Positions 3,633 to 64,000 of a stretch of 64,000 bases of DNA are shown piece by piece (the stretch's first letter is position 1; the number at the start of each line of letters is the position of its first letter). Below the pieces are notes generated by a model. It did not search any database. It was not told the origin of the DNA and worked only from the letters and a program-made list of their open reading frames with translations. Source of the DNA: Hypericum androsaemum (taxonomy: Eukaryota; Streptophyta; Magnoliopsida; Malpighiales; Hypericaceae); NCBI GenBank assembly GCA_963995505.1, contig OZ023189.1, forward strand, positions 1,005,155-1,069,154, written 5' to 3'. A program made the position numbers and the translations under genes.

Positions 3633-3672
3633 GGGGACATAGTTGTTTATGATATTATAGAGGGGAGAGCAA

Positions 3673-4103: not shown

Positions 4104-4110
4104 AGAGCAA

Positions 4111-6998: not shown

Positions 6999-7009
6999 TG
7001 TACCTGAAG

Positions 7010-13660: not shown

Positions 13661-13662
13661 AT

Positions 13663-13675
13663 CGTAAGACGAGAT
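13663..13675 (+). promoter_or_regulatory. Primer-binding-site region of A2
   Basis: CGTAAGACGAGAT starts 2 nt after the LTR end at 13660. It is complementary, with one mismatch, to ATCTCATCTTACG inside the LTR (13577-13589). Confidence 0.55.
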
Positions 13676-13689
13676 TCGTGTACTTGAAG

Positions 13690-32058: not shown

Positions 32059-32060
32059 AT

Positions 32061-32073
32061 CGTAAGACGAGAT
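32061..32073 (+). promoter_or_regulatory. Primer-binding-site region of A3
   Basis: CGTAAGACGAGAT starts 2 nt after the LTR. It is perfectly complementary over 13 nt to LTR positions 31976-31988, 70 bp before the LTR end. See findings for the self-priming idea. Confidence 0.55.
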
Positions 32074-32087
32074 CTGTGTACTTGAAG

Positions 32088-35000
32088 ATTGCATCAACAA
32101 GCTCAGCACCAGTTCCAGCGGTCCCGGGAACTGTCCACGCCAAAAGGCCGGCCAAGTTCAACGGTACCGAGTATAAGAGATGGCAACAGAAGATGCTGTT
32201 CTACCTGACGACGCTCAATCTGGTCCGATTCTTGAAGGAAGAGGCTCTGAAGGTGGCAAAAAATGAGGCTGATCAACAGAAGATCAACGCCCTTGATGCA
32301 TGTAGTCATAGCGACTTCCTATGTCGTAACTATGTTCTGAATGGACTAGATGATACCCTTTACAATTTCTATGCAGGTTTCAAGACCGCAAAAGAATTGT
32401 GGGACTCCTTGGAGAAGAAGTATAAAATGGAGGATGCCGACTTGAAGAAATTCATCGTCGGACGATTCCTCGACTTCAAGATGATCGACTCCAAGAAGGT
32501 GATAGACCAAGTGCAAGAGTTGCAACTAATCCTACATGAGATCCATGCTGAAGGAATGCAACTAAGCGAGTCTTTCTAAGTGGCTGCTCTGATCGAGAAG
32601 CTACCTCCTCTGTGTTTAAGAACTACCTCAAGCATAAGAGGAAGGACATGGGGCTGGAAGACCTGATCGTGAGACTAAGGATCGAGGAAGACAACTGAAA
32701 GTCCGAAGTCAAGACCGGCATGACCAACTCTGAGGCTAAGGTACACCTCGCCGAAGGTGGTACTGGCAAGAAGAGGAAGAAGCCCAGGAATAAGCAGGAG
32801 AAGCAAGAGCCAAAGCAAAAGAAAGCTAAGAAGATCAAGGGCAATTGCTACAACTGCGACAAACCCGGTCACATGGCAAAAGATTGTCGCCTGCCAAAGA
32901 GGGACAATCGTGAGAAGGCAAATCTGGCCGAAGACCTGTCTGAGCTAGACCTATCCGCCGTGGTGTTTGAAGCTAATCTAGTGGATAACCCAAGAGAGTG
33001 GTTCATTGACACAGGGGCAACCTGACACATCTGCTTAGACAAGGAAATGTTCTCGACCTATATCGCGATCAACGGCCGGAAGTTGTTTATGGGTAACTCC
33101 GCAACTTCTCCCGTAGTTGGACTAGGCCAGGTGGTGCTGAAGCTGACCTCTGGAAAAGAGCTGACCCTCAAGGATGTGCTGCATGTCCCAGACATTCGTA
33201 AGAATTTAGTATCCGTCTCACTGTTGAGCAAAGCTGGGATGAAACTAGTATTTGAAGCTGATAGGTTTGTTCTGACCAAGGCTGGTGCCTTTGTAGGAAA
33301 GGGTTACCTTGAGAGGGGGCTCTTCAAGATGAATGTAATAACTATCAAACGCGTCTTTAATGGCCCTAATAAAGTTGTTAATTCTTCTTATTTGGCTGAG
33401 TGTTCTAACTTATGGCATGATAGATTAGGACACGTAAATTTGAGCTCACTAAGAAAGTTAGTAAGTTTAAATTTATTGCCTAAAATGGAGTTTGACCCAA
33501 ACAATAAATGTGAAGTATGTGTAGAGGCAAAAATGACCAAAGCACCTTTTCATTCAGTAGAAAGAAGTACTACACCTTTAGAGTTAATTCATACCGACAT
33601 GTGCGATATGAAACAAGTGCAAACTAGAGGTGGAAAAAGTATTTCATCACGTTTATTGACGATTGCACGAGGTACTGTTATGTACACCTCTTGAAAGGAA
33701 AAGACGAAGCTCTAGAAGCTTTCAAGAGTTATAAAAATGAGGTTGAAAATCAACTTAGCACTAAAATCAAAATGATTCGAAGTGATAGAGGGGGAGAATA
33801 TGTAGCTCCGTTTGAGGAATTCTGCCAACAAAATGGCATTATCCATCAGACAACAGCTCCATGCTCACCTCAATCAAATGGCGTAGCTGAACAAAAGAAT
33901 CGAATTCTTAAGGAGATGATGAATGCTATGTTAATTAGCTCAGGCTTACCACAGAATTTGTGGGGGGGGGGGGGGGGGAAGCTGTGCTATCAGCTAATCA
34001 CATTCTAAACAAATTGCCGCACAAGAAAAGGGAGAAAATCCCATATGAACTATGGAAAGGGAGAAAGTCTTCCTACGGTTACCTTAAAGTGTGGGGGTGC
34101 CTAGCTAAGGTAGAAATACCTCCACCTAAAAGGGTGAGAATAGGACCCAAGACCGTTGACTGCATCTTTATCGGATATGCCCACAACAGTAGCGCATACC
34201 GATTTCTAGTGCACAAGTCTGAAAACCCTAAAATCAACGAGGGAATGGTCATGGAATCAAGGAATGCAACATTTTTTGAGAATATCTTTTCTAAAAAGGA
34301 AACGATAGAAGTAAGCTCAAACAAAAGAAGTTATGAAGCTACACAAGGCTGTGATCAAGGTGCTGAGGAACCTAGATGGAGTAAGAGGACCAAAGTAGCC
34401 AAGTCATTTGGTCCAGATTTTCTAAACTACATGTTAGAAAATGAACCCGGGACAGTACAAGAGGCATTATCCAGTCCGGATGCTCCTCTCTGGAAAGAAG
34501 CTATCAATAGTGAGATAGAATCCATCATACAAAACCACACGTGGGAAATCGTGGATCTTCCACCAGGTTGCAAACCTTTAGGTTGCAAGTGGATCCTTAA
34601 AAGGAAATACAAAGCTGATGGATCAATCGATAAATACAAAGCTCGGTTGGTAGCTAAAGGGTTCAAACAGAAGGAAGGATATGATTTCTTTGACACCTAT
34701 TTGCCGGTCACAAGAATCACATCCATTAGAGTGATCATAGCTATCACAGCACTCTATAACCTCGAGATACATCAGATGGATGTAAAAATAGCTTTCCTAA
34801 ATGGAGAACTAGAAGAGGAAATATATATGGAACAACCAGAAGGGTTTGTTGCCCCCGGACAAGAACATAAAGTGTGCAAGCTGGTCAAGTCACTGTACGG
34901 GCTGAAACAGGCGCCGAAACAATGGCATGAGAAATTTGACAGAACAATGATGTCAAATGGCTTTAAGATCAACGAATGTGATAAATGTGTATACATTAAA

Positions 35001-35983
35001 GGCACACCTGATGCTTACGTGATTGTATGTCTGTATGTAGACGACATGCTAATCACGGGAAGCAGTAATGATCTTATTATAAAAACTAAGAACATGTTAA
35101 AGAACAACTTTGACATGAAAGATATGGGTATAGCTGACGTCATACTAGGGATCAAAATCTCTAGGACGACTGAAGGAATTGTCTTATCACAATCTCACTA
35201 CGTTGAGAATGTACTCAAAAAATTTGATGTTTTGACAAACCTCCAGCTAAGACTCCGGTAGACCTGAGTCTACACTTGGCTAAGAACAGAGGTGACCCAG
35301 TATCTCAACTAAAATATGCAACGATCATTGGGAGTCTAATGTACTTAACAAATTGTACACGCCATGATATTGCATACTCAGTTAGCAAGCTTAGTAGATT
35401 TACGAGCAATCCAGGACCAGACCACTGGCTAGCTTTGGAAAGCGTTCTAAAGTATTTGAAATATACCATGAACCATGGCATACTTTGTACTAGGTATCCA
35501 GCTGTATTGGAAGGATGCAGTGATGCGAATTGGATATCGGACACTAAAGACTCCAAATCCACTAGTGGTTATGTGTTCACCATAGGTGGAGGAGCTGTGT
35601 CCTGGAAATCCTCTAAACAAACGTGCATAGCTCGATCCACCATGGAGTCGGAGTTTATAGCACTAGACAAATCTGGGGAAGAAGCTGAATGGCTCAGAAA
35701 TTTCCTAGAGGATATTCCGTGTTGGAACAAGTCTGTGCCCCCTGTATTAATACATTGTGATTGCATGTCTGCAATCGGGAGAGCACAAAGTACTATGTGC
35801 AACGGTAAGTCTCGACATATCCGTAGGAGACATAACACCATTAGACAATTGATCTCAAGTGGAGTAATAACCATTGATTATGTGAAGTCCAAGGACAACA
35901 TAGCTGATCCTTTGACGAAAGGAATCAACAGAGATCTAATGTACAACGCAGTAAAGGGAATGGGGTTAAAATCCACACATTAA
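32088..35983 (+). pseudogene. Copia A3 gag-pol pseudogene
   Basis: Blocks: gag to 32579; knuckle [14 protein letters not shown] (about 32845); protease WFIDTGAT then TGA at 33023; pre-integrase and integrase (33047-34000); RT with intact CLYVDDMLITGS (about 35020-35058); RNase H region to 35983. The expected start codon is ATT (32088) instead of ATG. Other lesions are TAA at 32577, a 7-bp deletion near 32613, TGA near 32697, TGA at 33023, a one-base loss near 33640, a 17-G run at 33962-33978 that shifts frame, and a one-base loss near 35229. Unlike A1 and A2, it has TGT and CAA at the two gag codons where they carry TAG. Confidence 0.9.
33962..33978. repeat. 17-G homopolymer inside A3 integrase
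   Basis: A1 and A2 have six G at the same place (TGGGGGGAAGC). The extra 11 bases shift the reading frame in the C-terminal part of integrase. Confidence 0.9.
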
Positions 35984-36535
35984 AGAACGTTCATAGCGGT
36001 AACTCAACCATGATGAGTGGAGATCCCACAAACTTGGTTCAATGAGACAACTAAGTTATAGATGGTTCAGATGAATACTTGGGATCCGTCCCATTCTCAG
36101 AAGTTGTCCAAGTACTACCCTGCAGAGGTGTGGTAAGGTTAAGCATCTACGCTTTTATTGATTCCTATACCAGATAAAGGTGGAGTATAGCAGGATACTC
36201 CTGATAGGAGATCACCAATATAAGTGTGAAGTGAGGCCGCTTCAAATTCAAATAAAAAAAATACTTATGAATCCAAGATAAGGTCCATGGCCGAAACGGA
36301 CACAACGTGAGAACCAAAGGATATTAGAGATATCATTGTGTAAATGTTATTGTCTTGGTTTACATAAAAAAGCTAACCAGTTCAAGACATCGCGTTCACT
36401 GAGCAGCAAGTAAATCCGATAGCATTTTACTAGGGAAGGTTCAAAGCCGTAAGCAACCTTTCTCGATGCAATGATACTTCGTTGGAACTTTCTTCAACGT
36501 GTCAGCATGCATTAATCATCATTCATGTGGAGGAT

Positions 36536-36752
36536 TATTGGAAAAGCTTGAATGAAAATTCAATGCAAAGCCCAAAGTGGAAAGGCCCAAAGTGGGAGGC
36601 CCAAAAGGGAAATGGAAAGTGCAATCCCACATTGGAAAGTGGCACCAACCTTTCCTAGTTTATAAGGAGAAACTCCTTGTTAGCTAGGAAATAAGTTGAC
36701 CACCTGGAAGGATAGCCAACTTCGACCGCGACAGGATGGTGCGTAGCACCAT

Positions 36753-36785
<33 letters not shown>

Positions 36786-37442
36786 CGCTTGCACACGTGC
36801 ATGTGCGCATGGCGCATTGGACGTAGGTCGCAATGGGCGCTTTGTGGCGTACTTGGTACTTCGCACGTGCGCATCGTCGCGAGGAGCTGGAGGAGCCTTA
36901 AGTATTTTACCCAAGTCCTGAGTGAGCTGCGTAGCTAACGAAGCGACGAGGGGCTGGAACATCCTGGAGACTTCCAGACGGCCGAAGGGTTGCGAGATCC
37001 CTCGTGAAGGAGTGCCAGCATAGTCTGGGCGCACCTGGAAGGATCCAGAATACCACCGAAGGGCCACGAGCGTAGCCAGCCAGCCTGCTGGCCGAATTGA
37101 CGCGCCCCTTCGAAGTGCGTGCCTCCCTCCCATCCAGCGCCTATAAATAGGCCCATCCCCCATCATTTGCACTCACCCCACTATAACTTGCATAAGCATT
37201 CGTTAGCAATTGTAGGCTCTCTCTCCCTCTCTCGGAACGTTCTGAATATCAGACGGTTCGCCAGAAGCTTCGAGGGTCGTTGTGCTACGAACTCGAAGTC
37301 TGAAAGTCATTGTATCTTGGGGACGATTGCCGCAGCCTGTAAGCACTAAATACGGGGCAATCTCATCTTATGGAGAAAGAGTCGAACTCTTGCCTCGACT
37401 AATAAAGATCCAAATCAAGTACACCTCCTCCGACAAACAGCA
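36536..37442 (+). repeat. 3' LTR of A3
   Basis: It starts TATTGGAAAAGCTTGAATG after GTGGAGGAT and ends CCGACAAACAGCA, 907 bp. It carries a (GAGCAC)n stretch at 36754-36785 and TATA at 37142-37151. Confidence 0.87.
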
Positions 37443-41457: not shown

Positions 41458-43085
41458 TTTAAACGATGCCAACTTGGCTTCCGACTCATGATGAGAAACC
41501 GCCTCAGACGAAGCCAACTTGGCTCCACCTCATGATGAGAACACAAACCGCCTTAGTCATAAACTGTCTTAGTCATATTCAATGACGCCAACTTGGCTCC
41601 GGCTCATGATGAGAAACGCAAACCGCCTTAGTCATATCGACGTCTAAACTGCCTTACTCATATTGAGGCACCGACTTGGTTCTGGTACAATTCGAACGTT
41701 TCACTCAAAGCCCAATAAGCGAGCACCGCGGCCGAGCGAACGAGCGAGCACACCAAGCGAATGAGTGAGCACCGCGGCCGAGCGAGCGAGCGAGCGAGCG
41801 AACGAGCACCTTGGCCGAGCAAGCAAGCAAGCACTTTGGCTGAGCGAGCGATGGTCGTGGCTGAGTGAACGGCCGAGCAACTTGGCTGAGCAAGCGAGAG
41901 CACACCGAGCGAGCGAGAGAGCACATCGAGCGAGCGAGCACCTTGGCTGAGCGAGCGAGCAAGCGTAGCAGCCGACAAAGCAAGAGAGCACACCGAGCGA
42001 GGCCCTTGGCCGAGCGAGCGAACATCGCAGCCGAGCGGGCGAGCGTCGTGGCCGAGTAAGCGAGCGAGCACCTTGACTGAGCGAGCGTCGCGGAAGAGCG
42101 AACAAGCGAGCAAGCGTTCGAGCGAGCACACCGAGCGAGCACCTTGGCTTAGCGAGCGAACCAAACGAGCGATCACCTTGGCCGAACGAGCGAGCATCGC
42201 AACTAAGCGAGCGAGCGAGCACCTTGACGGAGCAAGTGCGCAAGCTTCGCGGCCGAGTGAGCTAGCGAGCCAGCGTCGTGGCTGAGCGAACAAGTGAGCA
42301 AGCGTGGCGGTCGAGCGAGCGTTGTGACCGAGTGAGCGAGCGAGGCCCTTGGCCGAGCGAGCGAGCGTCGCGACTGAGCACCTTGGCGGAGCGAGTGAGC
42401 GAGCATCGTGGCCGAGGGAGCAAGCGAGCACCTTGGCAGAGCGAGCAAGCATCGCGGTCGAGCGAGTAAGCATCGCGACCGATCGAGTGAGCGAGCGTCG
42501 CGGTTGAGCGAGCGAGCGTCGCGACCGATTGAACGAGCGAGCATCGCGACCGATTGAGCGAGCGAGCGTCGCGACCGATTGAGCGAGCGAGCCCCTTGGC
42601 CGAGCGAGCACACTGAGCGACCGTCAAGGCCGAGCAAGCGAGCGAGAGCCCCTCGGCCGAGCGAGCGAGCAAGCCCCTCGGCCGAGCGAGCGAGCAAGCA
42701 TGGCGGCCGAGTGAGCGAGCAAGCATGGCGGCAGAGCGAGCGAGAGAGTACACCGAGCGAGCCCCTTGGCGGAGCGAGGCAGCGAGCATCGCGGCAGAGC
42801 GAGCGAGCGAGCACCTTGGCAGAGAGAGGGAGCGAGCATCGCATCGGAGCGAGCGAGCACCATGGCCGAGCGAGCGAGCGAGCACCTTGGCTGAGCGAGC
42901 GAGCAAGCAAGCATTGAGCCGGCGAGCACCGAGCGAGCGAGTGAGCACCGAGCGAACGAGTGAGCACCGAGCGAACGAGCGCATCGATCGAGCGGAGTAA
43001 GCAAAGTGCACGTAAGTTGGGAATGAGCGAACAAAACCAAAAATCCAGCGTACTCCAAAGCTGAGTCCTTTTTCGAGTCCCAACA
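41458..43085 (-). repeat. 3' LTR of element D (truncated)
   Basis: It starts TGTTGGGACTCGAAAAAGG (minus strand, 43085). A long GCTC/GAGC-rich minisatellite (about 41715-43000) comes next, then a block with repeated ACGATGCCAACTTGGC-like motifs (41460-41660). The TATA, R and U5 parts are absent. The open frames on both strands of the GAGC region (Leu-Ala-Arg-Ser and Ala-Ser-Glu-Arg repeats) reflect lack of stops in the repeat and are not genes. Confidence 0.75.
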
Positions 43086-43958
43086 ATGCCCCCCGTACGT
43101 AAATGCTTCGGTATGACCAGTTGAGAAGCGTTGACGTGGTCCTAAAAAAAACTCTTCGAGACTTGGTGAACTTGTGGCACTTCTACTCAAAGGGATTCCT
43201 CATCTCAGCCTTGGCATCTTGTAACTTCCCCGGGGTAGGGTGATGATCGCTACTCTCTGATAGCTCCATAGGATATAGGCCGCCGTCCGTAAAGACATAC
43301 CCGGCCGACTCATATGGTGACAAGGTGTAGACTCCATTCTCCTTTTCACCTCCCCCTAGGGCTTCACTTGCCATAGGCAAACAAGCTACGGCGCTTGCCT
43401 CAAAGTGAAGCTTCGGTCAGTCGTTGGGTCGAAGGGACCTCTCGCTCGACTAAACTCATATACCGAGCAAATCGGCCATCTATGTTGTTCCAGGCCATCC
43501 TTGTTAGCATTATAGACCCATCACATGAGACTGTTACAATATAATACGTGGTTGATGGCCGTGCATCGGTCATCATGATCTCTACCTTCCCATCTGACTT
43601 CCACCAGATTAGACATTGGCGGATGGAAGATGAGATTACCTGAACGAGCGAACTAAGTCTCGCCCTTTCCCGATAAAGTTGGTCATGATATTGCTAGTCT
43701 GGCTGGCCTCATCTTCCTCCTTCTCCTTATTGCATTTTCAGAGGAGAGACTGAAGAAAAGTATTCACCATTACTATAACGTCCATGAGTACCCTCTCGAT
43801 CGGCTCTCCGAGAATGTGAGCTGTGATGCTAAGAGGTTTTTTGCATTCGCCCATCCTTTGGGTTAGCCTCACGATAGTAACATTATCATTAAAGGCTTTC
43901 ACTACAGGTATGGCTGAGCACTTCTCTCCTACTTGAGGCTCAGTAGGATCTTCTTTGA
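43086..43958 (-). other. 3' internal region of element D, no recognised gene
   Basis: This lies between the polypurine tract and the end of the 313-codon frame. Short minus-strand frames such as 43183-43380 have no known motif. No pol domain is visible. Confidence 0.55.
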
Positions 43959-45271
43959 TTAGTCACCCTTGAGGTAACTTGGCTGGTTGGATCTCGACCC
44001 GAAGCTAGTCGGTAAGGAGAACTCCAAATTAGTCATCGCCTTGCCTGGGAAGTCCCCAAACTTGACATACCCGAAGCCAAGATCGGCCGAGACCTCCTTG
44101 CACTTTCTATAAGTATTGTCCTTCTGAGGGTGATCTCCTTCCAGGTGGATCTCATTCACCACCTTGGGTACCCACTTGCGGATCATCTTCTTGTGATTGT
44201 CAGCGGGTACCTTCGGTCGAACCTTATTGATGCTCTTCTTTCCCTTAGAGGCTTCAACCTCATTGGCCCGGCCTCGAGTTAGGGCCAATTGGTATTTAAG
44301 TCTTGGGTAAGCTAAAAGAGTATTTTGGTCCTCTAACTTGGTTCTTTGCTCCGCAAGTTTCCTTTCGAGGTCCTTGATGACTTGTTTTTGCTTTTGGACC
44401 TTCCTCTCAAGACGACGTCTCTGAGTCTTAGTCATGATGCCTTGTGTTAGTGGATCAGGGGTAACCCTATTATCTCCAAGCTGGTTGAAAGCGTATCGGT
44501 GTGGGTTGGACCAGTCTTGAAGGTCCACTTTGATACGGAGACAACGGAGCCTCCACATCTCATCGGCCTCCCTTGGACAGTAGAACTTCTGAGTCCTTGG
44601 AATACTACTACTTGGTGGCCATCCTTGCCCCCCGAGTCTTGCCCTCCGGGTATTAAGGTTGGCCTTTTCTTTCTTAGGGCCATCAGGTCCCCTTGAATGA
44701 AAGGACTTCTGAGCCTTTGGTTTGCCATTCTCGGGCGGCCTTCCTTGCCCCCCGAGTCTTGCCCCTCGGGTCTTAGGATTATCCTTCGCTTGCATAGGGC
44801 CATCCTTCTTTTGGCTTCGTTTGAGGCCAACCATAGCAACATAAGTAATTATGCGGGGGTCGATTGACGGTTGCCCCTCGGGGCACTGATATGTGTCCAA
44901 GCCCTCGGAATAAAAAAGTTGAGATTATCCTTCCGCCCCTTGTTCTTAGGTTGATTCGAACTCCAGTTGATAGTTGACGTCATCTTCATCGAGCTTTTCT
45001 TGTCAGTTGACATGGTCCTCATCGAGCTCTCCTTGTCGGTTGACATGGTCCTCATCAAGCTCTCCTTCCGATTGACATCATCCTTATCGAGCTCTTCTTG
45101 TCGGTTGACGTCGTCCTCATTGAGCTCCCCTTGCCTCAACATCATAAAGTGAGGAACCGGCTGAGGAATAGGAAAGCTTGGGTCCAACCCCTCTTGCTCT
45201 AATCTCACGAACCGAGGAGTCGCCTCATGAGTAAAAAAGCTTAGGTCCAACTCCTCTTGCTCCAAAATCAC
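43959..45271 (-). CDS. Unknown gag-like proteins of element D
   Basis: Two overlapping minus-strand frames, 44849-45271 (140 codons) and 43959-44900 (313 codons). The first is acidic and built from short tandem repeats (DVNRQEELDKDDVNRKES). The second has a duplicated block (ARLGGQGRPPENGKPKAQKS and ARLGGQGWPPSSSIPRTQKF), then a likely coiled coil (MTKTQRRRLERKVQKQKQVI, KDLERKLAEQRTKLEDQN) and a basic C-terminal part. I do not recognise a defined family. Position and composition suggest a gag-like or accessory protein of a non-autonomous element. The frames may be parts of one protein joined by a frameshift. Confidence 0.5.
45000..45130. repeat. Short tandem repeat in element D frame
   Basis: A 36-42 bp unit containing GAGCTCnnCTTGTCGGTTGAC is repeated about five times. 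It produces the repeated acidic motif in the overlapping minus-strand frame. Confidence 0.75.
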
Positions 45272-45855
45272 ATACTGAGGAGACGGAGACGGAACATAAG
45301 CAAGTCACGAAGCATTAGGTCGTTGACAAGCATCACCATCTCATCTTGCCTAAAAGAACCTTCTTGGGTCTCCTCATATATAGAGGACTCTCGCACATCC
45401 GGGTAATCAGAATCCTTAACCGATGGGAGTCGGCAATGTAAGCTTATGAAGTCATGAGTCTCGGCATCATAACAATGTAAAGATCCTACCCTCAATTGTT
45501 CCGAAGTAGGCTAAGTAAAGGACGGTGGCCTTACTCCATCATTGGTGGCCACCGAACAATCCCCAATAGCCCACGTAAGAGATTCTTCACAGCGCTTCCG
45601 AAACTCCTCACGTGCGAGTCGATTCTCCAATATTACCTCATCAAGCTTATTGATGAAATATGCAAGTGGATCCATCGGGATGAAAGTTGCCTTAGTCGGC
45701 TCTTTGTAGGGAGCCGTGGGAGATGAGTTCTTTACCGCGTCTAACTAGGAAGCGAAGGAAGGTGTCGGCTTCTTAGAGGAAATCGGAGAAACAAAGTAGT
45801 TAGTTGGCTTAGCTAGACAAAGGTGTTAGACCGCCTTATCAGACGTCCTCCCTAA

Positions 45856-45874
45856 TCCCACCAAGCGTGCCAAA
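45856..45874 (-). promoter_or_regulatory. Primer-binding site of element D
   Basis: The minus strand reads TTTGGCACGCTTGGTGGGA, 4-5 nt inside the LTR end at 45879. The position and TGG-containing start fit a tRNA primer site. The tRNA species was not determined. Confidence 0.65.
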
Positions 45875-46078
45875 AATATGTTGTGGGAAAAGTGGTACAA
45901 GAACGCAAGACTTCCTGAGACGGTCAGGAGTGATCGTCCCAAGGTCGGTCTAACGAAATGGGTGAAAAAAGAGCTAAAGAACCTTAGACGTTCGATCTAA
46001 GGGAGAGGGGGAAAAAGAGCTACGCTACGGAAAGAAATATGATACAAGTAAAAATAGAGTAGTTGGTTGTGTGGTTGA

Positions 46079-47236
46079 TTGATGATCCCCGATTTCACGC
46101 TCGCGCCCTCCTTATATAGACGATGCCAACCTCCTCAAACGATGTCAACTTGGCTCCGGCTCATGATGAAAACCAAAACTGCCTTCAGACGATGCCAACT
46201 GGGCTTTCGACTCATGATGAGAAACTGCCTCAGACGAAGCTTACTTGGCTCTGCCTCATGATGAGAACACAAACCGCCTTAGTCATATTCAATGACGCCA
46301 ACTTGGCTCCGGCTCATGATGAGAAACACAACCGCCTTAGTCATATCGACGTCTAAACTGCCTTAGTCACATTGAGGCACCGACTTGGTTCTGGCACATT
46401 TCAAACGTTTCTCTCAAAGCCCTATAAGCGAGCACCGCGGCCGAGCGAGCGAGCGAGCACACCAAGCGAACGAGCGAGCGAGGGAACGATCACCGCGGTT
46501 GAGCGAGCGAGCACATCTAGCTAGCGAGCTAGCACCTTGGCCGAGCGAGCGAGCACCTTAGCCGAGCGAGTGAGCAAGCATCGTGGTCGAGCGAGCGAGA
46601 GAGCACACCGAGCGAGCCCCTTGGCCGAGCGAGCGAGCGTCATAGCTGAGCGAGCGTGCACCTTGGCCGAACAAGTGAGCAACCGTCGACGCCGAGTGAG
46701 CCCCTTGGCCGAGCGAGCACACTGAGTGAACGTCGCGGCCGAGCGAGCGAGCACCTCGGCCGAGTTAGCGAGCGTCGCGACTGAGCGAGCGAGCGAGCAC
46801 CTGGGCGGAGCGAGGGAGCGAGCGTCGCGGCCGAGGAGCGAGCGAACACCTCGGCCGAGCGAGCTAGCATCGCGGCCGAGCGAGCGAGCACCTAGGCCGA
46901 GCGAGTGAGCGAGCGAGCGTGCGTCGCGACTGAGCGAGCGAGCGAGCAAGCATTGAACAGGCGAGCGAGTGAGCAAGTATTGAACCAGCGAGCACCGAGC
47001 GAGCGAGCACCGAGCGAACGAGCGCATCGATCGAGCGGGGTAAGCAACTTGCACGTAAGTTGGGAATGAGCGAACGAAACGAGTCAACTAAGGTAGAGGG
47101 GGAAAAAGAGCTACGCTACGGAAAGAAAGAGCCAAAGAACCTTAGACGTTCGATCTAAGGGAGAGGGGGAAAAAGAGCTACGCTGCGGAAAGAAATATGA
47201 TACAAGTAAAAATAGAGTAGTTGGTTGTGTGGTTGA
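46079..47236. repeat. Tandem unit 1 of element D array (1158 bp)
   Basis: This unit lies next to the U5 end of the LTR. TATA (minus CTATATAAGG) is at about 46111-46120. Its GAGC minisatellite is visibly more diverged from the others. Confidence 0.8.
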
Positions 47237-48415
47237 TTGATGATCCCCGATTTCACGCTCGCGCCCTCCTTATATAGACGATGCCAACCTCCTCAAACGA
47301 TGTCAACTTGGCTCCGGCTCATATTGAAAACCAAAACTGCCTTCAGACGATGCCAACTGGGCTTTCGACTCATGATGAGAAACTGCCTCAGACGAAGCTT
47401 ACTTGGCTCTGCCTCGTGATGAGAACACAAACCGCCTTAGTCATATTCAATGACGCCAACTTGGCTCCGGCTCATGATGAGAAACACAACCGCCTTAGTC
47501 ATATCGACGTCTAAACTGTCTTAGTCACATTGAGGCACCGACTTGGTTCTGGCACATTTCAAACGTTTCTCTCAAAGCCCTATAAGCGAGCACCGCAGCC
47601 GAGCGAGCGAGCGAGCACAGCAAGCGAACGAGTGAGCCAGTGAACGATCACCGCGGTCGAGCGAGCGAGCACCTAGGCCGAGCGAGAGAGCACATCTAGC
47701 TAGCGAGCTAGCACTTTGGCCGAGCGAGCGAGCACCTTAGCCGAGCGAGTGAGCAAGCATCGCGGTCGAGCGAGCGACAGAGCACACCGAGCGAGCCCCT
47801 TGGCCGAGCGAGCGAGCGTCGTAGTCGAGCGAGCGTGCACCTCGGCCGAACAAGTGAGCAAGCGTCGACGCCGAGTGAGCCCCTTGGCCGAGCGAGCACA
47901 CTGAGTGAACGTCGCGGCCGAGCGAGCGAGCACCTCGGCCGAGTTAGCGAGCGTCGCGATTGAGCGAGCGAGCGAGCACCTGGGCGGAGCGAGTGAGCGA
48001 GCGTCGCGGCCGAGGAGCGAGCGAACACCTCGGCCGAGCGAGATAGCATCGCGGCTGAGCGAGCGAGCACCTAGGCCGAGCGAGTGAGCGAGCGAGCGTG
48101 CGTCACGACTGAGCGAGCGAGCGAGCAAGCATTGAACCGGCGAGCGAGCGAGCGAGCATTGAACCAGCGAGCACCGAGCGAGCGAGAACCGAGCGAACGA
48201 GCGCATCGATCGAGCGGGGTAAGCAAATTGCACGTAAGTTGGGAATGAGCGAACGAAACGAGTCAACTAAGGGAGTGGGGGAAAAAGAGCTACGCTACGG
48301 AAAGAAAGAGCTAAAGAACCTTAGACGTTCGATCTAAGGGAGAGGAAGAAAAAGAGCTACGCTACGGAAAGAAATATGATACAAGTAAAAATAGAGTAGT
48401 TGGTTGTGTGGTTGA
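47237..48415. repeat. Tandem unit 2 (1179 bp)
   Basis: Same order as unit 1. It differs in the GAGC block and has CATATTGAAAACC in place of CATGATGAAAACC near 47320. Confidence 0.8.
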
Positions 48416-50741
48416 TTGATGATCCCTGATTTCACGCTCGCGCCCTCCTTATATAGACGATGCCAACTTCCTCAAACGATGTCAACTTGGCTCCGGCTCA
48501 TGATGAAAACCAAAACTGCCTTCAGACGATGCCAACTGGGCTTTCGACTCATGATGAGAAACTGCCTCAGACGAAGCTTACTTGGCTCTGCCTCGTGATC
48601 AGAACACAAACTGCCTTAGTCATATTCAATGACGCCAACTTGGCTCCGGCTCATGATGAGAAACACAATCGCCTTAGTCATATCGACGTCTAAACTGCCT
48701 TAGTCACATTGAGGCACCGACTTGGTTCTGGCACATTTCAAACGTTTCTCTCAAAGCCCTATAAGCGAGCACCGCGGTCGAGTGAGTGAGCGAGCACACC
48801 AAGCGAACGAGCGAGCGAGTGAATGATCACCGCGGTCGAGCGAGCGTGCACCTTGGCCGAGCGAGCGAGCACATCTAGCTAACGAGCTAGCACTTTGGCC
48901 GAGCGAGCGAGCACCTTAGCCGAGCGAGTGAGCAAGCATCGCGGTCGAGCGAGCGAGAGAGCACACCGAGCGAGCCCCTTGGCCGAGCGAGCGAGCTTCG
49001 TAGCCGAGCGAGCGTGCACCTTCGCCGAACAAGTGAGCAAGCGTCGACGCCGAGTGAGCCCCTTGGCCGAGCGAGCACACTGAGTGAACGTCGCGGCCGA
49101 GCGAGCGAGCACCTCGGCCGAGTTAGCGAGCGTCGCGACTAAGCGAGCGAGCGAGCACCTGGGCGGAGCGAGCGAGCGAGCACCTGGGCGGAGCGAGTGA
49201 GCGAGCGTCGCAGCCGAGGAGCGAGCGAACTCCTCGGCCGAGCGAGCTAGCATCGCGGCCGAGCGAGCGAGCATCGAGGCCGAGCGAGTGAGCGAGCGAG
49301 CGTGCGTCGCGACTGAGCGAGCGAGCGAGCAAGCATTGAACCGGTGAGCGAGCGAGCAAGCATTGAACCAGCGAGCACCGAGCGAACAAGCGCATCAATC
49401 GAGCGGGGTAAGCAAATTGCACGTAAGTTGGGAATGAGCGAACGAAACGAGTCAACTAAGGGAGAGGGGGAAAAAGAGCTACGCTACGGAAAGAAAGAGC
49501 CAAAGAACCTTAGACGTTCGATCTAAGGGAGAGGGGGAAAAAGAGCTACGCTACGGAAAGAAATATGTTACAAGTAAAAATAGAGTAGTTGGTTGTGTGG
49601 TTGATTGATGATCCCCGATTTCACGCTCGCGCCCTCCTTATATAGCCGATGCCAACCTCCTCAAACGATGTCAACTTGGCTCCGGCTCATGATGAAAACC
49701 AAAACTGCCTTCAGACGATGCCAACTGGGCTTTCGACTCATGATGAGAAACTGCCTCAGACGAAGCTTACTTGGCTCTGCCTCGTGATGAGATCACAAAC
49801 CGCCTTAGTCATATTCAATGACGCCAACTTGGCTCCGGCTCATGATGAGAAACACAACCGCCTTAGTCATATCGACGTCTAAACTGCCTTAGTCACATTG
49901 AGGCACCGACTTGGTTCTGGCACATTTCAAACGTTTCTCTCAAAGCCCTATAAGCGAGCACCGCGGTCGACCGAGCGAGCGAGCACACCAAGCGAACGAG
50001 CGAGCGAGTGAACAATCACCACGGTTGAGCGAGCGAGCACTTTGGCCGAGTGAGCGAGCACCTTAGCCGAGCGAGTGAGCAAGCATCGCGGTCGAGCGAG
50101 CGAGAGAGCACACCGAGCGAGCCCCTTGGCCGAGCGAGCGAGCGTCGTAGCCAAGCGAGCGTGCACCTTGGCCGAACAAATGAGCAAGCGTCGACGCCGA
50201 GTGAGCCCCTTGGCCGAGCGAGCACACTGAGTGAACGTCGCGGCCGAGCAAGCGAGCACCTCGGCCGAGTTAGCGAGCGTCGCGACTAAGCGAGCGAGTG
50301 AGCACCTGGGCGGAGCGAGTGAGCGAGCGTCGCGGCCGAGGAGCGAGCGAACACCTCGGCCGAGCGAGCTAGCATCGCGGCCGAGCGAGCGAGCACCAAG
50401 GCAGAGCGAGTGAGCGAGCGAGCGTGCGTCGCGACTGAGCGAGCGAGCGAGCAAGCATTGAACCGCTGAGCGAGCGAGCAAGCATTGAACCAGCGAGCAC
50501 CGAGCGAGCGAGCACCGAGCGAACAAGCGCATCGATCGAGCGGGGTAAGCAAATTGCACGTAAGTTGGGAATGAGCGAACGAAACGAGTCAACTAAGGGA
50601 GAGGGGGAAAAAGAGCTACGCTACGGAAAGAAAGAGCCAAAGAACCTTAGACGTTCGATCTAAGGGAGAGGGGGAAAAAGAGCTACGCTACGGAAAGAAA
50701 TATGTTACAAGTAAAAATAGAGTAGTTGGTTGTGTGGTTGA
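48416..50741. repeat. Tandem units 3-4, first 2326-bp dimer
   Basis: Units of 1189 bp (48416-49604) and 1137 bp (49605-50741). The pair recurs almost identically at 50742-53067. The shorter unit lacks a block of about 50 bp in the GAGC part (the one with ACATCTAGCTAACGAGCTAG in unit 3). Confidence 0.85.
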
Positions 50742-53067
50742 TTGATGATCCCCGATTTCACGCTCGCGCCCTCCTTATATAGCCGATGCCAACCTCCTCA
50801 AACGATGTCAACTTGGCTCCGGCTCATGATGAAAACCACAACTGCCTTCAGACGATGCCAACTGGGCTTTCGACTCATGATGAGAAACTGCCTCAGACGA
50901 AGCTTACTTGGCTCTGCCTCGTGATGAGAACACAAACCGCCTTAGTCATATTCAATGACGCCAACTTGGCTCCGGCTCATGATGAGAAACACAACCGCCT
51001 TAGTCATATCGACGTCTAAACTGCCTTAGTCACATTGAGGCACCGACTTGGTTCTGGCACATTTCAAACGTTTCTCTCAAAGCCCTATAAGCGAGCACCG
51101 CGGTCGAGTGAGTGAGCGAGCACACCAAGCGAACGAGCGAGCGAGTGAATGATCACCGCGGTCGAGCGAGCGTGCACCTTGGCCGAGCGAGCGAGCACAT
51201 CTAGCTAACGAGCTAGCACTTTGGCCGAGCGAGCGAGCACCTTAACCGAGCGAGTGAGCAAGCATCGCGGTCGAGCGAGCGAGAGAGCACACCGAGCGAG
51301 CCCCTTGGCCGAGCGAGCGAGCTTCGTAGCCGAGCGAGCGTGCACCTTCGCCGAACAAGTGAGCAAGCGTCGACGCCGAGTGAGCCCCTTGGCCGAGCGA
51401 GCACACTGAGTGAACGTCGCGGCCGAGCGAGCGAGCACCTCGGCCGAGTTAGCGAGCGTCGCGACTAAGCGAGCGAGCGAGCACCTGGGCGGAGCGAGCG
51501 AGCGAGCACCTGGGCGGAGCGAGTGAGCGAACGTCGCAGCCGAGGAGCGAGCGAACTCCTCCGCCGAGCGAGCTAGCATCGCGGCCGAGCGAGCGAGCAT
51601 CGAGGCCGAGCGAGTGAGCGAGCGAGCGTGCGTCGCGACTGAGCGAGCGAGCGAGCAAGCATTGAACCGGTGAGCGAGCGAGCAAGCATTGAACCAGCGA
51701 GCACCGAGCGAACAAGCGCATCAATCGAGCGGGGTAAGCAAATTGCACGTAAGTTGGGAATGAGCGAACGAAACGAGTCAACTAAGGGAGAGGGGGAAAA
51801 AGAGCTACGCTACGGAAAGAAAGAGCCAAAGAACCTTAGACGTTCGATCTAAGGGAGAGGGGGAAAAAGAGCTACGCTACGGAAAGAAATATGTTACAAG
51901 TAAAAATAGAGTAGTTGGTTGTGTGGTTGATTGATGATCCCCGATTTCACGCTCGCGCCCTCCTTATATAGCCGATGCCAACCTCCTCAAACGATGTCAA
52001 CTTGGCTCCGGCTCATGATGAAAACCAAAACTGCCTTCAGACGATGCCAACTGGGCTTTCGACTCATGATGAGAAACTGCCTCAGACGAAGCTTACTTGG
52101 CTCTGCCTCGTGATGAGATCACAAACCGCCTTAGTCATATTCAATGACGCCAACTTGGCTCCGGCTCATGATGAGAAACACAACCGCCTTAGTCATATCG
52201 ACGTCTAAACTGCCTTAGTCACATTGAGGCACCGACTTGGTTCTGGCACATTTCAAACGTTTCTCTCAAAGCCCTATAAGCGAGCACCGCGGTCGACCGA
52301 GCGAGCGAGCACACCAAGCGAACGAGCGAGCGAGTGAACAATCACCACGGTTGAGCGAGCGAGCACTTTGGCCGAGTGAGCGAGCACCTTAGCCGAGCGA
52401 GTGAGCAAGCATCGCGGTTGAGCGAGCGAGAGAGCACACCGAGCGAGCCCCTTGGCCGAGCGAGCGAGCGTCGTAGCCGAGCGAGCGTGCACCTTGGCCG
52501 AACAAATGAGCAAGCGTCGACGCCGAGTGAGCCCCTTGGCCGAGCGAGCACACTGAGTGAACGTCGCGGCCGAGCAAGCGAGCACCTCGGCCGAGTTAGC
52601 GAGCGTCGCGACTAAGCGAGCGAGTGAGCACCTGGGCGGAGCGAGTGAGCGAGCGTCGCGGCCGAGGAGCGAGCGAACACCTCGGCCGAGCGAGCTAGCA
52701 TCGCGGCCGAGCGAGCGAGCACCAAGGCAGAGCGAGTGAGCGAGCGAGCGTGCGTCGCGACTGAGCGAGCGAGCGAGCAAGCATTGAACCGCTGAGCGAG
52801 CGAGCAAGCATTGAACCAGCGAGCACCGAGCAAGCGAGCACCGAGCGAACAAGCGCATCGATCGAGCGGGGTAAGCAAATTGCACGTAAGTTGGGAATGA
52901 GCGAACGAAACGAGTCAACTAAGGGAGAGGGGGAAAAAGAGCTACGCTACGGAAAGAAAGAGCCAAAGAACCTTAGACGTTCGATCTAAGGGAGAGGGGG
53001 TAAAAGAGCTACGCTACGGAAAGAAATATGATACAAGTAAAAATAGAGTAGTTGGTTGTGTGGTTGA
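50742..53067. repeat. Tandem units 5-6, second 2326-bp dimer
   Basis: Units of 1189 bp (50742-51930) and 1137 bp (51931-53067), repeating units 3-4 at an offset of 2326 bp with very few differences by eye. Confidence 0.85.
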
Positions 53068-55193
53068 TTGATGATCCCCGATTTCACGCTCGCGCCCTCC
53101 TTATATAGACGATGCCAACCTCCTCAAACGATGTCAACTTGGCTCCGGCTCATGATGAAAACCAAAACTGCCTTCAGATGATGCCAACTGGGCTTTTCGA
53201 CTCATGATGAGAAACTGCCTCAGACGAAGCTTACTTGGCTCTGCCTCGTGATGAGAACACAAACCGCCTTAGTCATATTCAATGACGCCAACTTGGCTCC
53301 GGCTCATGATGAGAAACACAACCGCCTTAGTCATATCGACGTCTAAACTGCCTTAGTCACATTGAGGCACCGACTTGGTTCTGGCACATTTCAAACGTTT
53401 CTCTCAAAGCTCTATAAGCGAGCACCGCGGCCGAGCGAGCGAGCGAGCACACCAAGCGAACGAGCGAGCGAGTGAACGATCACCGCGGTCGAGCGAGCGA
53501 GCACCTTGTTCGAGCGAGCGAGCACCTTAGCCGAGCGAGTGAGCAAGCATCGCGGTCGAGCGACCGAGAGAGCACACCGAGCGAGCCCCTTGGCCGAGCG
53601 AGCGAGCGTCGTAGCCGAGCGAGCGTGCACCTTGGCCGAACAAATGAGCAAGCGTCGACGCCGAGTGAGCCCCTTGGCCGAGCGAGCACACTGAGTGAAC
53701 GTCGCGGCCGAGCAAGCGAGCACCTCGGCCGAGTTAGCGAGCGTCGCGACTAAGCGAGCGAGTGAGCACCTGGGCGGAGCGAGTGAGCGAGCGTCGCGGC
53801 CGAGGAGCGAGCGAACACCTCGGCCGAGCGAGCTAGCATCGCGGCCGAGCGAGCGAGCACCAAGGCAGAGCGAGTGAGCGAGCGAGCGTGCGTCGCGACT
53901 GAGCGAGCGAGCGAGCAAGCATTGAACCGCTGAGCGAGCGAGCAAGCATTGAACCAGCGAGCACCGAGCAAGCGAGCACCGAGCGAACAAGCGCATCGAT
54001 CGAGCGGGGTAAGCAAATTGCACGTAAGTTGGGAATGAGCGAACGAAACGAGTCAACTAAGGGAGAGGGGGAAAAAGAGCTACGCTACGGAAAGAAAGAG
54101 CCAAAGAACCTTAGACGTTCGATCTAAGGGAGAGGGGGTAAAAGAGCTACGCTACGGAAAGAAATATGATACAAGTAAAAATAGAGTAGTTGGTTGTGTG
54201 GTTGATTGATGATCCCCGATTTCACGCTCGCGCCCTCCTTATATAGACGATGCCAACCTCCTCAAACGATGTCAACTTGGCTCCGGCTCATGATGAAAAC
54301 CAAAACTGCCTTCAGATGATGCCAACTGGGCTTTTCGACTCATGATGAGAAACTGCCTCAGACGAAGCTTACTTGGCTCTGCCTCGTGATGAGAACACAA
54401 ACCGTCTTAGTCATATTCAATGACGCCAACTTGGCTCCGGCTCATGATGAGAAACACAACCGCCTTAGTCATATCGACGTCTAAACTGCCTTAGTCACAT
54501 TGAGGCACCGACTTGGTTCTGGCACATTTCAAACGTTTCTCTCAAAGCTCTATAAGCGAGCACCGCGGCCGAGCGAGCGAGCGAGCACACCAAGCGAACG
54601 AGCGAGCGAGTGAACGATCACCGCGGTCGAGCGAGCGAGCACCTTGTTCGAGCGAGCGAGCACCTTAGCCGAGCGAGTGAGCAAGCATCGCGGTCGAGCG
54701 AGCGAGAGAGCACACCGAGCGAGCCCCTTGGCCGAGCGAGCGAGCGTCGTAGCCGAGCGAGAGTGCACCTTGGCCGAACAAGTGAGCAAGCGTCAACGCC
54801 GAGTGAGCCCCTTGTCCGAGCAGGCACACTGAGTGAACGTCGCGGCCGAGTGAGCGAGCACCTCGGCCGAGTTAGCGAGCGTCGCGACTGAGCGAGCGAG
54901 CGAGCACCTGGGCGGAGCGAATGAGCGAGCGTCGCGGCCGAGGAGCAAGCGAACACCTCGGCCGAGCGAGCTAGCATCGCGGCCGAGCGAGCGAGCACCT
55001 AGGCCGAGCGAGTGAGCGAGCGAGCGTGCGTCGCGACTGAGCGAGCGAGCGAGCAAGCATTGAACCAGCGAGCACCGAGCGAACGAGCGCATCGATCGAG
55101 CGGGGTAAGCAAATTGCACGTAAGTTGGGAATGAGCGAACGAAACCAAAAATCCAGCTTACTCCAAAGCCGAGGCCTTTTTCGAGTCCCAACA
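53068..55193. repeat. Tandem units 7-8 and U3 start
   Basis: Unit 7 (53068-54205, 1138 bp) and unit 8 (54206 to the LTR start) share private variants such as AAAGCTCTATAAGC (AAAGCCCTATAAGC elsewhere). They form a third closely related pair. Unit 8 ends in the unique LTR start next to 55193. Confidence 0.8.
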
Positions 55194-55519: not shown

Positions 55520-55838
55520 AAATGCAGTAGCAATACATGAAGAACCGAAAAGGCGATCTGGGTTGGCGACCAGTGCTGAAGACAAGATGGCGGTTTGGAT
55601 GATTCGATGATCTGACGCCTTTGAACAGTCTAACAACGGGCATGTCCTCTCTGCGGCATTGGTGCATATCAGCCAACACCGAACTTGGCACTGATGATCA
55701 GAATTGTGCTTGCATCAACCCACTTACTTATGTATTAAGTGATCAAAAAGGAAACAATACATACCAAGTCTCGAAAGCACTCCCATTTGGCGCTCTAGGA
55801 ATATGCATCCGCCGATTTCTCATTTATCTTTTTATTTA
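55520..55838. other. Unassigned sequence between SINE and MULE
   Basis: Short frames exist on both strands (for example 55461-55691 minus) but show no motif I can name. It could include further exons of the orphan gene. Confidence 0.35.
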
Positions 55839-56710
55839 GGGCAAAATAGTGAGAGATTCCTGATGTTTGAAGGAATTCATTAATCAGGACTGCCTAGAAT
55901 TAATTAATCCCTAAAAATTTCAAAAATTAATTGATTAGTCCCTGAACACATATTCTGTCACTTTTTCGACAAGACATTTTAAAGTGCCAAAATACCCCTA
56001 AATATAAAATAATAAAATTCCTTGGCCGTGGAAAGGAATTTAATAGCACCTTAGCAGTGGAAAGAAGCCTCGTCGTCGTCGAGGGTTCGACCGTCTCTGA
56101 CACATGGTTATCATTTTCCAACGCATTGAGACCGGCGAGGGCTGCCTGAGAACGGTTGTCAGAGATATTAAATCTGGGTTTTCTCTTGCAATTTCTCCTA
56201 CGATTTCTCGATTAGTTAGGGATGACATACGTGGTGTTAGAAAGATAATACGACCACCGTTGGAAAAGACAAACACGGCTCGTGAACTAGGGTTTCAGAA
56301 GACAATATAACCTCCGCTGTCTCTTTTCTTAGCTTCCATCTCCTTCACCCATCTCCGTCTTCCCGTTTAAATTAAATTGCTTGAATCTCTAATTGGGTCT
56401 TGATTTTGGCTTCTTTGGCTGGATTATAAAGTGCCATTGGGATAAATATAGCCCTACATCAACTGATTCTCAGCCATTTTCTTCAAAATCTGCTATTCCA
56501 ATTAATGGGTTTAAGAAAGGCAATTTTATAATTTTTGAGTAAGTTTAGGGGTATTTTTTGCACTTTACAAAATATTTTGTCAGAATATTGATTGAAATTG
56601 TGTTCAGGGACTAATCAATTAATTTTTTAAATTATCAGGAACTAACTAATACTAAGTCGTCCTGGTTAATGAATTTCTTTAAATATCAGGGACCTCTCAC
56701 TATTTTGTCC
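55839..56710. mobile_element. Non-autonomous Mutator-like element 1, 9-bp TSD
   Basis: The TIRs are about 170-190 bp long. The left end reads GGGCAAAATAGTGAGAG and the right end (reverse) GGACAAAATAGTGAGAG, and both continue through TTAATTGATTAGTCCCTGAA. TTTTATTTA flanks it at 55830-55838 and 56711-56719, the 9-bp duplication typical of Mutator elements. There is no transposase. The interior (56020-56400) has higher GC and may be a captured gene fragment. Confidence 0.87.
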
Positions 56711-56885
56711 TTTTATTTATATATTTCCCAAAATTGCAAGAAACTTGCCGTCTCGTCCCAACTAAGCAAAGCAAGTCAGAAATAGGGCATTTGGCGGGAG
56801 CGGGAAAAACCTTTCTGGCGGGGCTTCTGCTTGATGGGCCCGATTCACATCCACGGCCCAGTGGACCAGCCTATCATTTTTTTAA
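56711..56885. other. Spacer between two Mutator-like elements
   Basis: A short spacer with no recognised feature apart from the two TSD copies at its ends. Confidence 0.5.
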
Positions 56886-62662: not shown

Positions 62663-63698
62663 TGTTGTTTCGGAGGGTTGGTGTACTTGATTAGGATCTT
62701 CGGCAGTCGAGGCAAGTGTTGGACACTTTCTCCATAAGACGAGATTGCCCCGTATATTTCAGTGCGGTACGGGCTTCGGCAATCGTCCCCAAGATACAAC
62801 GAATGTTTAGGGCATTTCCAAGAATGTTGCACACGTATCTCGAAACTTTCGGGCGAACCCTTATATACCCAGAACTTTCGGACTCATTTCTAAGTGAAGA
62901 ACGGGGGAAAGAAGAAGACAACAATGCTCGGAAATGCAATTGCTGCTGGGATGAGATTTATGGCAAGGGGGCAGGCCTATTTATAGGCTGGAATAGGCAG
63001 GGAGGCAGCCACCCTGAAGGGACGCGTCCGCTCGGCCAGCAGGCTGTCTGGCTGCGCTCGTGGCCCTTCGGTGACTTCTGGATCCTTCTAGGCGCGCCAG
63101 GCTGCGCTCGTGGCCCTTCGGAAGCTTCTGGATCCTTCCAGGCGCGCCCAGGCTGCGCTGGCGCCCTTTCGCGATGGATCTCGCAACCCTTCGGCCTTCT
63201 GGAAGTCTCCTGGATGTTCCAGCCCGTCGTGCCTCTTCGGTGGCCAACCTGAAGGCGCTCGCAGCTCCTCGTCGCTTCGGTAGCTGCGCAGCTACCTCCG
63301 GACCCGGGCAACATACTTAAGGCTCCTCCAGCTCCTCGCGACGATGCGCACATGCGAAGTGCCAAGTGCACCACAAAGCGCCCATTGCGACCTGCGTCCA
63401 ATGCACCATGCGCACACGTACGTGCGTGTGCACGAGCTCGTGCGCGTGCACGAGCTCGTGCTCGTGCTCGTGCTTGTGCTCGTGCTCGTGCTCATGCTCG
63501 TGCTTCGCACCGTCCTTGCAGCTAGCGGTGGGTCAGCCTTTAAGTAGTCAACCAAGTTTGAGAGGTGATGAGGGGAATTCCTTATAAATAAGGAAATCCT
63601 CCTTGCTCTAATCAATATGGTAATGCAACCTTTCCATTTTCCTTTTGGGCCTCCACTTTGGGCCTTACCATTTTGGGCCAAATGCATTCAACCCAACA
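62663..63698 (-). repeat. 3' LTR of A4
   Basis: The minus strand runs from TGTTGGGTTGAATGC (63698) to CGAAACAACA (62663), 1036 bp. It contains a (GAGCAC)n-type repeat at about 63430-63510 (GCTCGT on the plus strand), a TATA box (minus CCTATAAATAGG, about 62976-62987) and a tandem duplication of about 55 bp with CTCGTGGCCCTTCGG at 63057 and 63107. It carries ATCTCGTCTTATG, the counterpart of the LTR site complementary to the primer-site segment. Confidence 0.88.
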
Positions 63699-64000
63699 AT
63701 CCCCCACATGAATGATGATTAATGCATGCAGACTCTAATAGAAAGTTCTGACGTGTTATTATTGCATTGAGATAGGTAGCTTGCGGCTTTGAACCTTCTA
63801 TAGTAATATGTTATCGGATTTACTCGCTGCTCGGTGAACGTGATGTCTTGAACCGTCAGCTTTTGGTGTAAACCAAGACAATAACATTTACACAATAATA
63901 ACCCTAGTATATTTGGGTTCTCACGTTGTGTCCGTTTCGGCCATGGACCGTATCTTGGATTCATAAGTGTTTTTCCCATTTGAAGCGGCCTCAATTCACA
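62663..64000 (-). mobile_element. Ty1/copia element A4, 3' end (continues beyond window)
   Basis: Minus-strand copy of family A. Its 3' LTR is 62663-63698 and the 3' non-coding internal region continues from 63699 to the window end. The internal part matches the 300 bp before the 3' LTRs of A1-A3 (for example TCATTCATGTGGGGGAT next to the LTR, and GAAGCGGCCTCAATTCACA at the window end). The coding region lies outside the window. Confidence 0.9.

Follow-up and report, generated by a model that had tools for sequence, protein, structure and literature searches.

Eight tandem units within one long terminal repeat of a Hypericum androsaemum retrotransposon: an array that looks like a very early stage on the route to satellite DNA

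A 64-kb stretch of the Hypericum androsaemum genome (contig C10, positions 1005155-1069154 of a 385-Mb assembly in 29 contigs; hereafter the window) contains a non-autonomous long terminal repeat (LTR) retrotransposon, termed element D, at ~41463-55193 on the minus strand. The 5' LTR of element D is 9,315 bp long and contains eight head-to-tail units. The repeated unit is identified by its sequence as the LTR body, multiplied at this single locus, because the corresponding block is single in the 12 related LTRs examined and the motif at the junctions between the units is unique to the array. The array probably arose by one illegitimate duplication within the 5' LTR after element D had been inserted with single-unit LTRs, followed by unequal exchange that raised the number of units to eight. 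It looks like a locally amplified LTR, very early on a known plant route to satellite DNA, and calls for no new mechanism.

Structure of the expanded 5' LTR

The initial annotation described one minus-strand LTR of ~9.3 kb with about eight tandem units and proposed a self-comparison of this region. The array is recovered at 45964-55080 when the window is compared with itself by BLAST, and its self-matches longer than 1 kb have identities of 88.9-96.5% and lengths of up to ~5.4 kb. The exact bounds of the LTR, 45879-55193, and eight anchored units confirm this description. The extremities of the LTR are TGTTGGGACT at 55193 and CCCACAACA at 45879 on the minus strand; the same bounds, printed as TGTTGGGACTCGAAA...ACTTTTCCCACAACA, enclose exactly 9,315 bp. 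The 9.3-kb block is recognised as the LTR of an LTR retrotransposon from its terminal TG...CA and from a primer-binding-site (PBS)-like motif and a polypurine tract, which follow in order. The units, cut at a fixed anchor, are designated U1 to U8 and are called "unit" throughout, to distinguish them from the U3 and U5 regions of the LTR. All are on the minus strand and share one orientation.

45879-55193, minus strand: expanded 5' LTR of eight tandem units, 9,315 bp, native start at 55193 and native end at 45879
54044-55139, minus strand: unit U1, 1096 bp, with the native first 54 bp of the LTR on its 5' side
52906-54043, minus strand: unit U2, 1138 bp, mosaic of a 5' part resembling units U3/U5 and a 3' part resembling unit U1
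51769-52905, minus strand: unit U3, 1137 bp, 3 differences from unit U5
50580-51768, minus strand: unit U4, 1189 bp, mosaic of a 5' part resembling unit U6 and a 3' part resembling units U3/U5
49443-50579, minus strand: unit U5, 1137 bp
48254-49442, minus strand: unit U6, 1189 bp
47075-48253, minus strand: unit U7, 1179 bp
45879-47074, minus strand: unit U8, 1196 bp, ending with the native U5 region and CCCACAACA beside the PBS-like motif
46110-46119, minus strand: TATA box CTATATAAGG of unit U8, one of eight
46119, 47277, 48456, 49645, 50782, 51971, 53108 and 54246, minus strand: starts of the eight TATA boxes

The unit represents almost the entire LTR. Missing from it are just the initial ~50 bp and the final ~86 bp of the LTR, each of which is retained as a single copy at its end of the array. 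The repeated block had been described as 1.14-1.19 kb long. Its eightfold repetition stands, with unit lengths of 1,096 to 1,196 bp, and the description is corrected in that the unit is nearly the whole LTR and an extra 41-nt copy of a segment of the R region is present at each junction. A GAGC-rich minisatellite and a TATA box had been attributed to every unit, and both are found in 8/8. Eight copies of the TATA box CTATATAAGG are present on the minus strand, one in each unit and always intact, and none on the plus strand; GAGC-rich minisatellite arrays are present in each of the eight units. Each unit could start a transcript, as predicted from the intact TATA motif. Eight active promoters are not demonstrated, because a TATA box alone is not transcription.

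The eight units are 96.3-99.7% identical to one another over their shared part, which is the part that remains after the junction copy and the native tail are trimmed off. Units U3 and U5 differ at 3 sites, and units U4 and U6 at 15. The number of private substitutions in the shared part is 15 for unit U7, 9 each for units U1 and U8, 7 for unit U6, 4 for unit U4, and 1 each for units U2, U3 and U5. Unit U8 is ruled out as the most diverged unit: it has 36 private substitutions when its native tail is misaligned to the junctions and 9 after trimming, and its identity to the other units is 96.8-97.6% over the trimmed shared part, as compared to 95.0-95.8% without trimming, a value lowered by the native tail.

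Element D and its relatives in the assembly

The other parts of element D are as follows.

45852-45878, minus strand: PBS-like motif TATTTTTGGCACGC..., directly after the 5' LTR, recurring at the same place in several relatives
43086-45878, minus strand: internal region of ~2.8 kb, longest open reading frame (ORF) 43959-44900
43088-43096, minus strand: polypurine tract (G run) adjoining the 3' LTR
41463-43085, minus strand: 3' LTR, one unit long and truncated shortly before the TATA box

Copia coding sequence adjoins the left end of the truncated 3' LTR (41463), and the target site duplication is unreadable there owing to this truncation. The 3' LTR is 82-83% identical to the array units over all aligned positions. 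A candidate origin of the 5' LTR from an element other than that of the 3' LTR is supported neither by the tree of an LTR segment nor by the distances described below. As judged from its anatomy, with a 3' LTR from which the TATA box, R and U5 are missing, element D should be unable to complete reverse transcription or to transpose again. The array is read as a local, embryonic satellite, for which spread by retrotransposition is not expected.

The internal ORF at 43959-44900 matches no Pfam family, and a protein search with it gives 0/955 candidates at E <= 0.001. The internal region matches many places in the assembly, and the best others among the 40 best of 1,084 candidates, which were scored, are on C19 (90%) and C17 (88%). 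In a relative on C17 (L019/L020), the LTR features match the LTR of element D at 83-91%, and the internal protein is 38% identical to that of element D over 130 aa. Downstream on the same strand, this relative encodes RVT_1, RT_RNaseH, rve and H2C2, namely the reverse transcriptase, RNase H and integrase of Ty3/gypsy. Element D is thus assigned to Ty3/gypsy through a candidate autonomous relative with similar LTRs. The initial annotation likened the element to Tat/Ogre. A second, archaeal-type RNase H domain is the hallmark of the Tat lineage. Two pieces tried for this domain match no Pfam family and are similar by eye only; the likeness is partly supported, at the level of Ty3/gypsy, and the Tat hallmark is not established.

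The unit gives at least 131 matches in the assembly, with the best 40 of 574 candidates scored. Among these matches, the eight in the window are 93-100% identical to the unit and the others are at most 83% identical, except for pieces of 41-81 bp. The long satellite arrays of the unit that were to be looked for in the host genome are not found: no other array of the unit is present among the scored matches, and the junction occurs only at the array.

Twelve complete family LTRs of 1,175-2,752 bp are obtained from the fetched loci, and the single-unit count rests on these 12. Each contains one TATATAA, one match to the TATA/R feature and one match to the U5 feature, where a match is counted if it covers at least 35% of the feature. 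This result bears out the claim that the block is normally present once, and the unit proves to be ordinary LTR sequence. Ten of the 12 start with TG and nine end with ACA. Exact 5-bp direct repeats flank five of them (L011, L017, L023, L024 and L028), and three (L009, L019 and L027) sit in longer elements, where flanking repeats are unreadable. The following are left out of the 12: L001-L008 and L029 (the window itself), L031 (the same place as L009), L021 (LTR tip only), L030 and L032-L036 (LTR incomplete in the stretch), L037, L038, the 5' LTR of L009 (tip unseen), and L010, L012, L014, L016, L018, L020 and L022 (no LTR feature match).

The promoter-proximal block is lengthened by internal repeats in several of the 12 family LTRs. 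Two LTR-like places ~2.9 kb apart at 2.457-2.460 Mb of C17 are rejected as a two-unit tandem; each has a single TATA/R match and a single U5 match, and the two resemble the LTR pair of a short element. In L023 (4761-5111), two stretches that resemble the LTR start lie 260 bp apart in one LTR, and the second is 84% similar to the tip, possibly representing a small partial duplication. In L038, the LTR pair of one short family element (980-1416 and 3517-4315) is unequal in the length of its promoter-proximal repeats, in steps of ~50 bp by eye. The family LTRs thus vary at several repeat scales, as this LTR pair illustrates.

A 15-mer containing the TATA box gives 2,412 matches in the assembly with at most one mismatch, whereas its reversed control gives 10. 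Among the first 100 places listed, the 15-mer is spaced at intervals of ~1,907 bp on C1. Tandem units of ~1,907 bp that are ~99% identical are seen at C1:7919500-7928500 (L037), and inspection by eye suggests LTR-like and gag-like parts, a PBS-like motif and a purine run in them. The TATA spacing suggests more such units at 7.936-7.942 Mb, together with units of ~2.85 kb at 8.37-8.80 Mb. The C1 array is rejected as a satellite of the present unit, since it has no LTR feature match and shares just a 16-nt stretch with the unit. Perhaps it consists of tandem copies of a short, unrelated LTR element that have LTRs in common.

Junctions, mosaic units and origin of the array

All seven junctions between the units have one common structure. 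The R/U5 sequence is cut after ...TTTGGCTC (TTTAGCTC in one junction) and is followed by a second, 41-nt copy of an R segment (TTTCTTTCCGTAGCGTAGCTC...CTTAG), by TTGACTCG, and then by TTTCGTTCGCTC of the U3 region. The extra 41-nt copy is present at every internal junction. Of the 115-nt junction stretches, five are identical and two contain a few substitutions. TTTCGTT is also present in the native U5 region at the matching place, representing a 7-nt microhomology by eye. The junction motif is located as follows.

47064-47093, 48243-48272, 49432-49461, 50569-50598, 51758-51787, 52895-52924 and 54033-54062, minus strand: seven exact copies of the 30-nt junction motif

This 30-mer, CCTTAGTTGACTCGTTTCGTTCGCTCATTC, has seven exact matches in the whole 385-Mb assembly, all within the array, and no further match at up to three mismatches. 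One founding event behind all seven junctions is the simplest reading, because the seven share one structure.

Two units appear to be mosaic. Unit U2 is of the U3/U5 unit type until alignment column ~444-511 and of the unit U1 type thereafter, with 31 of 32 informative sites fitting one switch. Unit U4 is of the unit U6 type until column ~675-788 and of the U3/U5 unit type thereafter (35/36 sites). The single-switch fit of each is reached by 0/20,000 shuffles. These units were each tested twice, with unit U3 or U5 as a parent, and all four tests give 0/20,000; the parents were picked after inspection of the data, and the shuffle counts of the nine tests in total are uncorrected for multiple testing. 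Among the other tests, unit U3 with parents U2 and U4 gives 26/30 sites and 75/20,000 shuffles, and unit U1 with parents U2 and U8 gives 46/51 sites and 163/20,000 shuffles. An apparent mosaic of unit U7 (parents U6 and U8; 48/61 sites, 8/20,000) is rejected as an artefact of the native tail of unit U8.

In both units U2 and U4, a 5' part of the downstream type is joined to a 3' part of the upstream type. This polarity is expected from duplication by unequal exchange, in which units X and Y would give X, (Y5'/X3') and Y. The order of units U1, U2 and U3 fits a single unequal exchange directly, with 1 of 32 sites off. Exchange is expected to homogenise the middle of a tandem array, and the inner units are more alike, with fewer private substitutions, as would be expected in that case. 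The mosaic units and the fewer private changes of the inner units are consistent with growth by unequal exchange and homogenisation, and are not proof of it.

The time of this growth is suggested by Kimura two-parameter (K2P) distances computed over a promoter-proximal segment of ~300 bp. The distance is 0.014 on average and 0.023 at most among the array units, and 0.075 on average (0.065-0.084) between the units and their own 3' LTR. That of the LTR pair of the C17 element is 0.091. Most of the array growth seems to postdate the insertion, because the distances among the units are far smaller than those to the 3' LTR.

According to the preferred reading, a non-autonomous Ty3/gypsy element would have been inserted on the minus strand at ~41463-55193 with ordinary single-unit LTRs. 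A later, single illegitimate event in the 5' LTR would then have duplicated almost all of the LTR body head to tail, by joining R/U5 to a point in the U3 region ~50 bp from the LTR start, with a templated 41-nt R copy, 8 nt and the TTTCGTT microhomology at the join. Unequal crossing over, or an equivalent exchange between sister chromatids, would have become possible because the copies were homologous after the first duplication, and would have raised their number to eight and generated the mosaic units. We infer the order and nature of these events, and exchange rather than slippage or conversion, from the structures described above.

Several points weigh against this sequence of events or its timing. 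Homogenisation could make an old array look young, and the founding event may predate the divergence of the units. The truncated 3' LTR cannot tell one unit from several at the time of insertion. The units are not a clear sister group of the 3' LTR (support for the grouping is 0.215, in a poorly resolved segment tree), and a solo LTR on C16 is as close to unit U8 (K2P distance 0.0655) as the 3' LTR is (0.0649). Unit U1 with parents U2 and U7 has no switch beyond chance (3,836/20,000 shuffles), and unit U6 with parents U4 and U7 has no switch. The position of unit U4 between units U3 and U5 is not given by a single exchange of one unit, and at least one more event is needed.

A different first step, in which a deletion removed the sequence between the LTRs of tandem or nested elements and so joined two of them as the founding dimer, is rather unlikely, and would be compatible with the same later growth. 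By eye, TTGACTCG, the 8 nt that precede the microhomology, look like the LTR start TTGGGACTCG minus two bases; if they are a remnant of an LTR start, they would favour the joining of two LTRs, and a joining of an LTR-UTR (untranslated region) with an LTR is proposed for the maize CRM repeats (PMC3648361). However, the resemblance is limited to 8 nt seen by eye, and this step requires a second element, of which no other trace is seen, while element D retains its own internal region.

It is improbable that the multi-unit LTR was formed during reverse transcription, by strand transfer at R or template switching, and was inserted as an array. The unit runs from the U3 region to R/U5, so that repeated R regions would be possible alternative sites of strand transfer, and the truncated 3' LTR is compatible with such an origin; abnormal strand transfer is hypothesised for the 3'UTR repeats of Tat/Ogre elements (PMC7004042). 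In contrast, the units are much nearer to each other than to the 3' LTR, the mosaics of units U2 and U4 point to DNA exchange once the first copies existed, and the junction is found in no other copy of the assembly.

A false expansion or collapse in the assembly is very improbable. The array is assessed from the assembled sequence; the unit number could be off, and the near-identical units U3 and U5 could be a false duplication. However, in 23 of the 28 unit pairs the shared part has at least 25 differing sites, indels between the units reach 42 bp, and a 385-Mb assembly in 29 contigs suggests that long reads were used. That this LTR gave rise to a larger satellite family, with the array as an outlying part, is hardly credible: other long LTR-related arrays exist in the assembly, such as the 1,907-bp units on C1, but the C1 array is of an unrelated element that shares the 16-nt TATA stretch, and the matches of 93% or more among those scored are the eight in the window alone.

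Neighbouring repeats and comparison with known plant arrays

The window also contains three related copia elements with direct terminal repeats, at 6523-11869, 12895-19141 and 31570-37439. Identity between the terminal repeats is 96.2% over 452 bp in the first element and 92.3% over 494 bp in the third. Parts of the same copia family are inverted at 62663-64000. An inverted self-match of ~350 bp with 89% identity at 1009-1360 is possibly a foldback element, and inverted repeats of ~190 bp (80.5%) that lie ~0.5 kb apart at 55838-56711, near the array, possibly represent a non-autonomous DNA transposon.

In maize, CRM4TR consists of ~1.39-kb LTR-UTR monomers at a single locus, each with a TATA box and internal short repeats, and its cDNAs start 18-43 nt after the TATA box (PMC3648361). 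CRM1TR and CRM4TR form pericentromeric arrays of dozens of copies over more than 100 kb, and CRM1TR has no TATA box; these repeats are proposed to have begun with an illegitimate joining, and their growth is attributed to non-allelic gene conversion (PMC3648361). The present array is similar to both in that its monomer derives from a Ty3/gypsy LTR, and to CRM4TR in its single locus and in the TATA box and internal short repeats of each monomer. Unlike the CRM repeats, its unit contains the LTR only, it has eight copies, and the native LTR ends, the PBS-like motif and the internal region are still attached. It lies ~1 Mb from a contig end.

The Ogre-derived satellites of Lathyrus sativus originate mainly from repeats of the hypervariable region of the 3'UTR and are expanded chiefly in the primary constrictions (PMC7004042). 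The present array resembles them in that short tandem arrays inside LTR retrotransposons occasionally expand to satellites, and is different in that its source is the LTR and not the 3'UTR. CRM1TR and CRM4TR are a closer precedent than Ogre, because the published Ogre satellites come mainly from 3'UTR repeats. In Retand, tandem arrays sit between pol and the 3' LTR (PMC11963269). LTR segments are named among the sources of satellites in a review (PMC12628747). Tandem LTR retrotransposons (PMC11899658) and Cassandra arrays (PMC7215508) consist of alternating LTRs and internal regions, for which unequal or illegitimate exchange is discussed; the present array is similar to them in being a tandem structure that involves LTRs, but here the LTR alone is repeated, within one LTR. 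The sobo satellite of wild potato, with a composite 4.7-kb monomer, a length of ~360 kb and similarity to a gypsy LTR, occupies one pericentromeric place (named in PMC3648361). The two are alike as gypsy-LTR-related repeats at one place, but the sobo monomer is composite and its array is far longer. A published LTR-only array still bounded by its native ends is not found in a narrow literature search of partial coverage.

The initial annotation called this structure a satellite forming inside an LTR. This description holds for the head-to-tail growth inside an identifiable element and does not hold for long arrays or many copies, since there is one 9.3-kb locus. Tentatively, the array may be a satellite at birth, in which a whole-LTR monomer with its promoter multiplies inside the recognisable parental LTR, with the founding junction, the exchange products and the single-copy state all readable in one genome. 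If so, the unit number should vary among accessions, giving LTRs with one to many tandem promoters. The beginnings of satellites are usually lost as the arrays expand beyond the sequence from which they arose, whereas the present locus retains its source LTR, a single founding junction and two likely products of exchange. These preserved stages make the order from illegitimate duplication to unequal exchange testable by comparison of haplotypes, and the array lends itself naturally to the question of whether transcription or silencing is altered when an LTR contains additional TATA boxes.

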